From contig JABIQT010000338.1 of the NCBI GenBank assembly GCA_018667995.1, positions 1 to 21,207 on the forward strand: 21,207 bases of DNA, in the 5' to 3' direction. Positions 19,043 through 19,633 of the stretch are shown in pieces. Below the pieces are notes generated by a model. It saw only the letters and a program-made list of their open reading frames with translations. It was not told the origin of the DNA and ran no database searches. Made by a program: the position numbers and the translations under genes. Each line of letters opens with the position of its first letter. The stretch's first letter is position 1. This stretch comes from Candidatus Latescibacterota bacterium. Lineage in GTDB: Bacteria > JAAXHH01 > JABIQT01.

Positions 19043-19067
19043 GCAACTTTCTTTAGAAGAAAGTTGC
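19043..19067 (+). repeat. Perfect 11-bp hairpin at head of repeat copy 1
   Basis: GCAACTTTCTT-TAG-AAGAAAGTTGC: eleven paired bases around a TAG loop. The equivalent hairpin in copy 2 is also perfect, with two base pairs changed on both arms. Confidence 0.85.
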
Positions 19068-19167
19068 GCAAAGAATCGCACTGTTTACAAGGCGTAGTGG
19101 AGTGGTCACTGTGGGTATGAGGCTATCTACGGGTGCCACACTTCCACACCCCTCGCTACGCGACCCC

Positions 19168-19190
19168 GAGGCTTCGCGGGGCGAAGTCTC
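19168..19190 (+). repeat. Second hairpin inside repeat copy 1
   Basis: GAGGCTTCGC-GGG-GCGAAGTCTC pairs over 10 positions, one of them G-T. In copy 2 (19514-19536) that position is T opposite T, so the lower stem is not maintained there although the CTTCGC/GCGAAG core is. Confidence 0.55.
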
Positions 19191-19382
19191 GAAATGGCCA
19201 CACCATTGTGGGGGCTGGGAATTTGCGGCGGTCAATCGCTGGGTAAACGGTGCAGGAAACGGCAGACGATGCAGGTGGATGTGCAGCCCTCGCGTATTGA
19301 ATACGGAACGACTGGGCACTGTGATGGTTCGTTAGTTTAGCAGGTGGATGTTACTGGTCTATCAGGCATTCAACCTTGTAAA

Positions 19383-19633
19383 GAATGCTCCTTTCTTTAG
19401 AAGAAAGGAGCGCAAAGAATCGCACTGTTTACAAGGCGTAGGGGGGAGTGGCGACTGTGGGTATGAGGCGATCTGTGGGTTCCGCACTTCCACACCCCTC
19501 GCTGCGCGACCGCGAGTCTTCGCGGGGCGAAGTCTCGAAATGGCCAAACCTTTGTGCGGGCTGGGAATTTCTGGGCGGTCTATCGCTGGGTAAACGGTGC
19601 AGGGACAGGCCGGCGGTGTAGGTGGATTTGCGG
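19383..19633 (+). repeat. Direct repeat, copy 2 (about 251 bp)
   Basis: It is the second copy of the element at 19039-19286, in the same orientation and about 344 bp downstream. Identical blocks lie at 19410-19441 and 19518-19546. The offset grows from 344 to 346 nt within the element, showing small indels, so the two copies have diverged for some time. The edges are set where similarity to copy 1 fades and are accurate to a few bases. Confidence 0.85.
19387..19411 (+). repeat. Perfect 11-bp hairpin at head of repeat copy 2
   Basis: GCTCCTTTCTT-TAG-AAGAAAGGAGC: eleven paired bases around a TAG loop. Compared with copy 1, A-T and A-T pairs three and four from the base have become T-A and C-G, so pairing is kept despite four base changes. 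Confidence 0.85.

Follow-up and report, generated by a model that had tools for sequence, protein, structure and literature searches.

The window is a stretch of 21,207 nucleotides from a Candidatus Latescibacterota bacterium (contig JABIQT010000338.1). Between a + strand gene for an M20 peptidase and a − strand gene for a cobalamin adenosyltransferase, it has two intergenic copies of a repeat, arranged in tandem with a spacing of 344–347 nt (Table 1). Each copy opens with a perfect 11-bp stem around a TAG loop: GCAACTTTCTT-TAG-AAGAAAGTTGC in copy 1 and GCTCCTTTCTT-TAG-AAGAAAGGAGC in copy 2. An earlier note had drawn attention to these hairpins, to the four changes between their stems (AA/TT to TC/GA, or two compensated pairs), and to the identity of the 32 nt that follow (19066–19097 and 19410–19441), and all of these are as it described. 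By our arithmetic, the chance that 4 differences among the 22 stem bases would make two compensated pairs is about 8e-4 (55/7315 for changes that form two pairs, times (1/3)^2 for complementarity). The repeat unit is longer than the hairpin described in the note: the hairpins are the 5' part of a repeat of about 212–215 nt, and the bodies of the two copies are about 87–90% alike. The order of the parts is the hairpin (P1), a CAAAGAA box, and then a long-range stem (P2) that closes the folded body.

Table 1. Parts of the two copies of the element (positions in the window).
Feature	Position	Observation
Copy 1, whole element	19043–19254	Folding z −4.1 on the − strand, better than 200 shuffles
Copy 1, P1 hairpin, 11 bp, TAG loop on +	19043–19067	
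Copy 1, box CAAAGAA on + (TTCTTTG on −), candidate third strand	19069–19075	From the sequence; in relatives, it changes together with the purine arm of P1
Copy 1, P2 5' strand, GCACTGTTTAC	19078–19088	
Copy 1, inner hairpin of the body	19167–19191	Covaries among own-genome copies (alignment columns 130–154)
Copy 1, P2 3' strand, GTAAACGGTGC	19243–19253	Near the element's right end
Copy 2, whole element	19387–19601	Folding z −5.6 on the − strand, −4.1 on the + strand
Copy 2, P1 hairpin	19387–19411	
Copy 2, box CAAAGAA	19413–19419	
Copy 2, P2 5' strand	19422–19432	
Copy 2, inner hairpin of the body	19513–19537	
Copy 2, P2 3' strand	19590–19600	

Because the window copies lie between a + strand gene and a − strand gene, and the hairpin of copy 2 has a weak T tail on the − strand, we considered whether the element is simply an intrinsic terminator for two convergent genes. 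However, no T tract follows the P1 hairpin in the relatives that we read (the weak tail is at copy 2 only), and the intergenic regions that hold copies include divergent, co-directional, and convergent ones. A terminator is extremely improbable.

Searches of the window's own genome, which is 85% complete, found seven distinct P1 hairpins: two in the window, two on contig C493, and three on contig C976. (A hairpin at the start of C976 overlaps the end of contig C926 and was counted as one copy.) The pair on C493 is one complete copy and one lone hairpin, and six of the seven hairpins belong to full copies. The lone hairpin is a perfect 15-bp stem, GAATGCTCCTTTCTT-TAG-AAGAAAGGAGCATTC (L003 1371–1403); it is inverted relative to the full copy about 320 nt away, and its flanks recur at the contig's end. 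C976 and C926 overlap via one copy of the element (L006 1–120, L007 1–120), and C493 ends in a repeat. The family breaks the assembly, and its copies are probably under-counted.

In an alignment of the six full copies, RNAalifold found P1, an 11-bp P2 enclosing the entire body, and the inner hairpin; all three covary. For example, one pair in P1 occurs as UA, AU, and CG, and one pair in P2 occurs as UG, AU, and GU. We also scored a structure that we named ourselves, comprising P1 and P2 with a 4-bp inner extension: paired cells made up 96.8%, versus 38–51% if the partner was slid, and the covariation score was above those of all 500 shuffles. None of the six copies has lost the P1 stem, with one mismatch in each of three of them. 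The box is altered in just one of the six (CAAGGAA in the C493 copy, a single A-to-G change).

These copies also suggest how the compensated pairs arose. The ancestral P1 of the six copies looks like GCTAC/GTAGC. Two copies (C493 and C976c) have GCTCC/GTAGC, with a one-sided C.U mismatch, which is a step between GCTAC/GTAGC and the GCTCC/GGAGC of copy 2; this points to stepwise compensation in copy 2. So the compensated pairs that the earlier note reported are real, but the joint origin that it implied is not what the six copies indicate: the two compensations probably arose step by step, in separate lineages. The one-sided intermediate also speaks against a single template-switching event (quasipalindrome correction), which would make complementary changes in one step without any selection on the stem. 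P1 would suit such a process, as its arms are adjacent with an ideal 3-nt loop and the two changed pairs are neighbours. However, P2 (whose arms are about 155 nt apart), the inner hairpin, and a pseudoknot between the P1 loop and downstream bases (see below) also covary, and the box that changes in lockstep with P1 is not a matter of complementary arms. We consider it very improbable that such a mutational process alone accounts for the stems.

Read on the complementary strand, the element's core is 5'-S1-TTCTTTG-N4-CTTTCTT-loop-AAGAAAG-N4'-3'. The core and box are present in seven hairpins of a related genome (G015) and in one degenerate hairpin of another (G001), while the TAG core is absent from 12 genomes of one related genus in the same order. 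A scan of GTDB contigs found the core in a Candidatus Latescibacterota genome from Lake Baikal (G016), which the set of genomes from the window's phylum did not include. The Baikal genome has 15 copies with the TAG-loop core and at least 40 matches to the body (from 130 first-look candidates), and it is the only one of 64 genomes of its phylum with the TAG-type pattern. We selected 46 Baikal copies by their box and body and tested six P1 pairs in them under a tree-aware null built from the body tree; four of these pairs gave p values of 0.0005–0.003. One Baikal subtype (L092, L095, L364, L366, L372, and L374) often has a small conserved hairpin-like stretch after the body, around GTC-GTTTT-GACC. 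We also noticed inverted pairs of elements, 500–600 nt apart, that make a large palindrome-like unit (L142 1712–2349, L157 6551–7756, and L178 1334–1878).

To describe the wider superfamily, we ran a loose pattern (CTTTCTT, loop, AAGAAAG, N4-6, CAAAGAA) against IMG/VR, which gave 78 stretches, of which about 70 are distinct. (The 47 matches to our first IMG/VR pattern were set aside as chance because their stems do not extend.) A perfect 4-bp basal P1 stem, whose four pairs stand outside the search pattern, is present in 34 of 69 viral matches, versus 2.4 expected if the 3' halves are shuffled. Many of the matches also carry a P2 stem, which starts 2–5 nt past the box. BLAST against plasmids and phages found no relative, and Rfam, at gathering and at permissive cut-offs, found no family in the element. 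The element family is wide and includes unrelated bacteria and phage-like contigs; presumably, similar TTTCTTTGG...ACTTTCTTT repeats are present in many bacterial genomes.

Four related phages (L193, L125, L162, and L173) carry the element between their portal and scaffold genes, with both P1 and P2 compensated across the four. Their basal P1 arms are GTAT/ATAC, CTGA/TCAG, GTTC/GAAC, and GGTA/TACC. Two related phages (L126 and L171) have the element at other sites, which suits mobility. In a set of eight phage-type elements, covariation extends jointly over P1, P2, and the loop pseudoknot: 8 pairs have changes on both sides, and the covariation score is above those of all 500 shuffles. In L193, the phage RNA motif GP20-b (Rfam RF03003; 2924–2981) lies directly after the element, also between the portal and scaffold genes.

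The earlier note suggested that the folded form is under selection, and that a lack of covariation in a broader alignment, or stems broken in most copies, would count against this. The copies from the window's own genome, the Baikal copies, the phage elements, and the viral matches all covary instead. That selection keeps the shape of the fold while the letters change is well supported by these alignments.

In most relatives, the Baikal and phage copies among them, the loop of P1 also base-pairs just past the box, which gives an H-type pseudoknot. This pairing covaries as well, with forms such as CGTGC/GCACG, TGCCC/GGGCA, TGTCC/GGACA, and CGTC/GACG. The window's TAG-loop class keeps the box and does not have the loop pseudoknot. 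Furthermore, the TTCTTT of the box is parallel to the AAGAAA of the stem and base-matched to it, as in a pyrimidine-motif triplex. If the box is a third strand in the groove of an H-type pseudoknot, then the box and the purine arm should change together. In the relatives they do: AAGAAAG goes with CAAAGAA, and AAGAAAAG goes with CAAAAGAA. Counting matches from four IMG/VR scans with at least 3 of the 4 basal pairs, we found 47 cases of AAGAAAG with CAAAGAA and 24 of AAGAAAAG with AAAAGAA, versus 5 mismatched cases of AAGAAAG with AAAAGAA and 2 of AAGAAAAG with CAAAGAA. Of the five AAGAAAG cases, most are chance matches in A/T-rich sequence and one is clean. As a control for the third strand, we used a second core, AAAGAAG, for which matched and mismatched boxes are both near background. 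Similarly, among the 46 Baikal copies, G at position R7 of the arm goes with a C in the box in 28 copies and A goes with A in 18, with no crossed combinations. This lockstep involves 10 shared branches (p_tree = 0.0005 under the body-tree null), a count that exchange of the P1-plus-box block between copies may inflate. In the relatives' sequences, the candidate third strand is matched to the purine arm and follows its changes; the window copies represent one state. From the lockstep of box and arm, we predict a triplex with the third strand in the groove.

A few riboswitches (SAM-II and preQ1-II) and telomerase RNA are known to contain an H-type pseudoknot with a major-groove triple helix. As in those structures, the pyrimidine strand of loop 1 would run parallel to stem 2's purine strand, and the order on the − strand is S1, TTCTTTG, S2, S1', S2'. 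The pairing of a hairpin loop with its flank that defines an H-type pseudoknot is found in the Baikal genome and the phages and not in the window's TAG-loop class. Unlike the known examples, to which it has no sequence relation, the element is dispersed and does not precede one kind of gene, and its triplex is a prediction.

The main rival to a mobile element that is read as single-stranded DNA is a class of structured non-coding RNA (a small RNA, a stability element, or a cis-regulator) that acts as RNA. A pseudoknot with a possible triplex between L1 and S2 in the major groove does resemble RNA architectures, and the site between portal and scaffold genes is conserved in four phages. The G.U-type wobble of P1 on the − strand also fits an RNA. 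On the + strand, the non-Watson-Crick pairs in P1 include 22 A.C or C.A and 3 G.T; an excess of A.C on the + strand is G.U on the − strand, so P1 favours the − strand. P2 has no strand bias overall, and the copies in the window's genome show G.U on the + strand, which favours that strand. Thus, the wobble pairs in P1 and P2 do not settle which strand folds. Against an RNA class, no promoter-like site was found near the window copies, the genome from Lake Baikal has at least 40 variable copies, and neither the neighbouring gene nor the orientation is constant across copies. (Only phage genes for terminase, portal, and capsid proteins recurred as neighbours, and viral contigs inevitably carry these.) The orientation of the element relative to the flanking genes is mixed. 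We consider an RNA-level function unlikely.

We looked for an enzyme that might move the element. No Y1 (HUH) or RAYT transposase was found in G015. The window's genome has a single Y1 domain in a long frame, without the element's hairpin nearby, and the Baikal genome has one partial Y1 match, 9 kb from the nearest copy found; no mobilising gene is linked to the element in these three genomes. The Y1 domain in the window's genome (contig C899; L085 1501–1854) is unusual in that it ends a long acidic frame, near another long frame. Tyrosine recombinases are present in all four genomes, which is uninformative. Reading the flanks of the element by eye, we saw no clear target-site duplication, and the flanks of P1 differ by genome (for example, GAATGC, TTTGCC, and GCATT).

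Another possibility is a REP or REPIN-type element that is mobilised by a RAYT (TnpA-REP) transposase. REPs are described as small palindromes of 20–40 bp, tagged at one end by GTAG or CGTC (PMC3733652). Like REPs and REPINs, our element is intergenic, palindromic, dispersed, and multicopy, with tandem and inverted pairs. However, it has no linked RAYT gene; it is not a small palindrome with such an end tag; and its length (about 212 nt), multi-stem body, conserved CTTTCTT core, mirror-matched third-strand-like box, and loop pseudoknot are all unlike REPs. A REP-type element seems very improbable.

The element also resembles MITE-like foldback repeats such as ERIC, Correia, and BOX, which are 100–200 nt, non-coding, and non-autonomous, and fold as a unit. 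Our element shares these features, as well as compensatory changes among copies. But MITEs have fixed terminal inverted repeats and an autonomous partner, while the closing stem P2 differs between copies of our element, P1 lies outside P2, the box is in lockstep with the stem, and we saw no autonomous element. Cozzuto et al. described 92 families of stem-loop-containing repeats in 40 genomes (2008; PMC2267715). These families are defined by their stem-loops and are similarly intergenic with a common secondary structure. None of the papers searched contains the motif sequences. Dispersed folding repeats as such are already known, and within the literature and databases that we searched, this family appears to be undescribed.

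On balance, we lean towards reading the window's tandem pair as copies of a dispersed, non-coding repeat that is mobile but non-autonomous and is recognised in trans through its folded single strand. This is the most economical account. The alignments show that compensatory change keeps the stems, both inside single genomes and from one genome to another, and that the P1 loop of the main class pairs just past the box. We propose that TTCTTT(T)G would lie as a third strand along the CTTT(T)CTT/AAGAAA(A)G stem, in its major groove, with T.A-T and C+.G-C triples. Our proposal would explain why the box and the core of the stem keep their sequence and the rest of the fold keeps only its pairing. 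The single strand, either DNA during replication or RNA, would be the form that a trans-acting enzyme reads, and this enzyme would move the element into intergenic sites of chromosomes and phages.

We also put forward, as a possibility that we hold more tentatively, that these elements are an unnamed and widespread class of bacterial and phage repeats that need, for their mobility or function, a conserved single-strand pseudoknot with an intramolecular triple helix, in which the third strand coevolves with the stem. If the third-strand reading is true, then placing TTCTTTTG on the AAGAAAG stem should weaken the fold, and the double change should restore it; it would also raise the family above the known dispersed folding repeats. 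A compensation between two copies that was spotted by eye has led to a real and testable family. If our broader claim is true, then the dozens of varying copies per genome, together with those in phages, would be a large natural test set for the rules of triplex formation, and one would then have to ask what enzyme recognises the fold.
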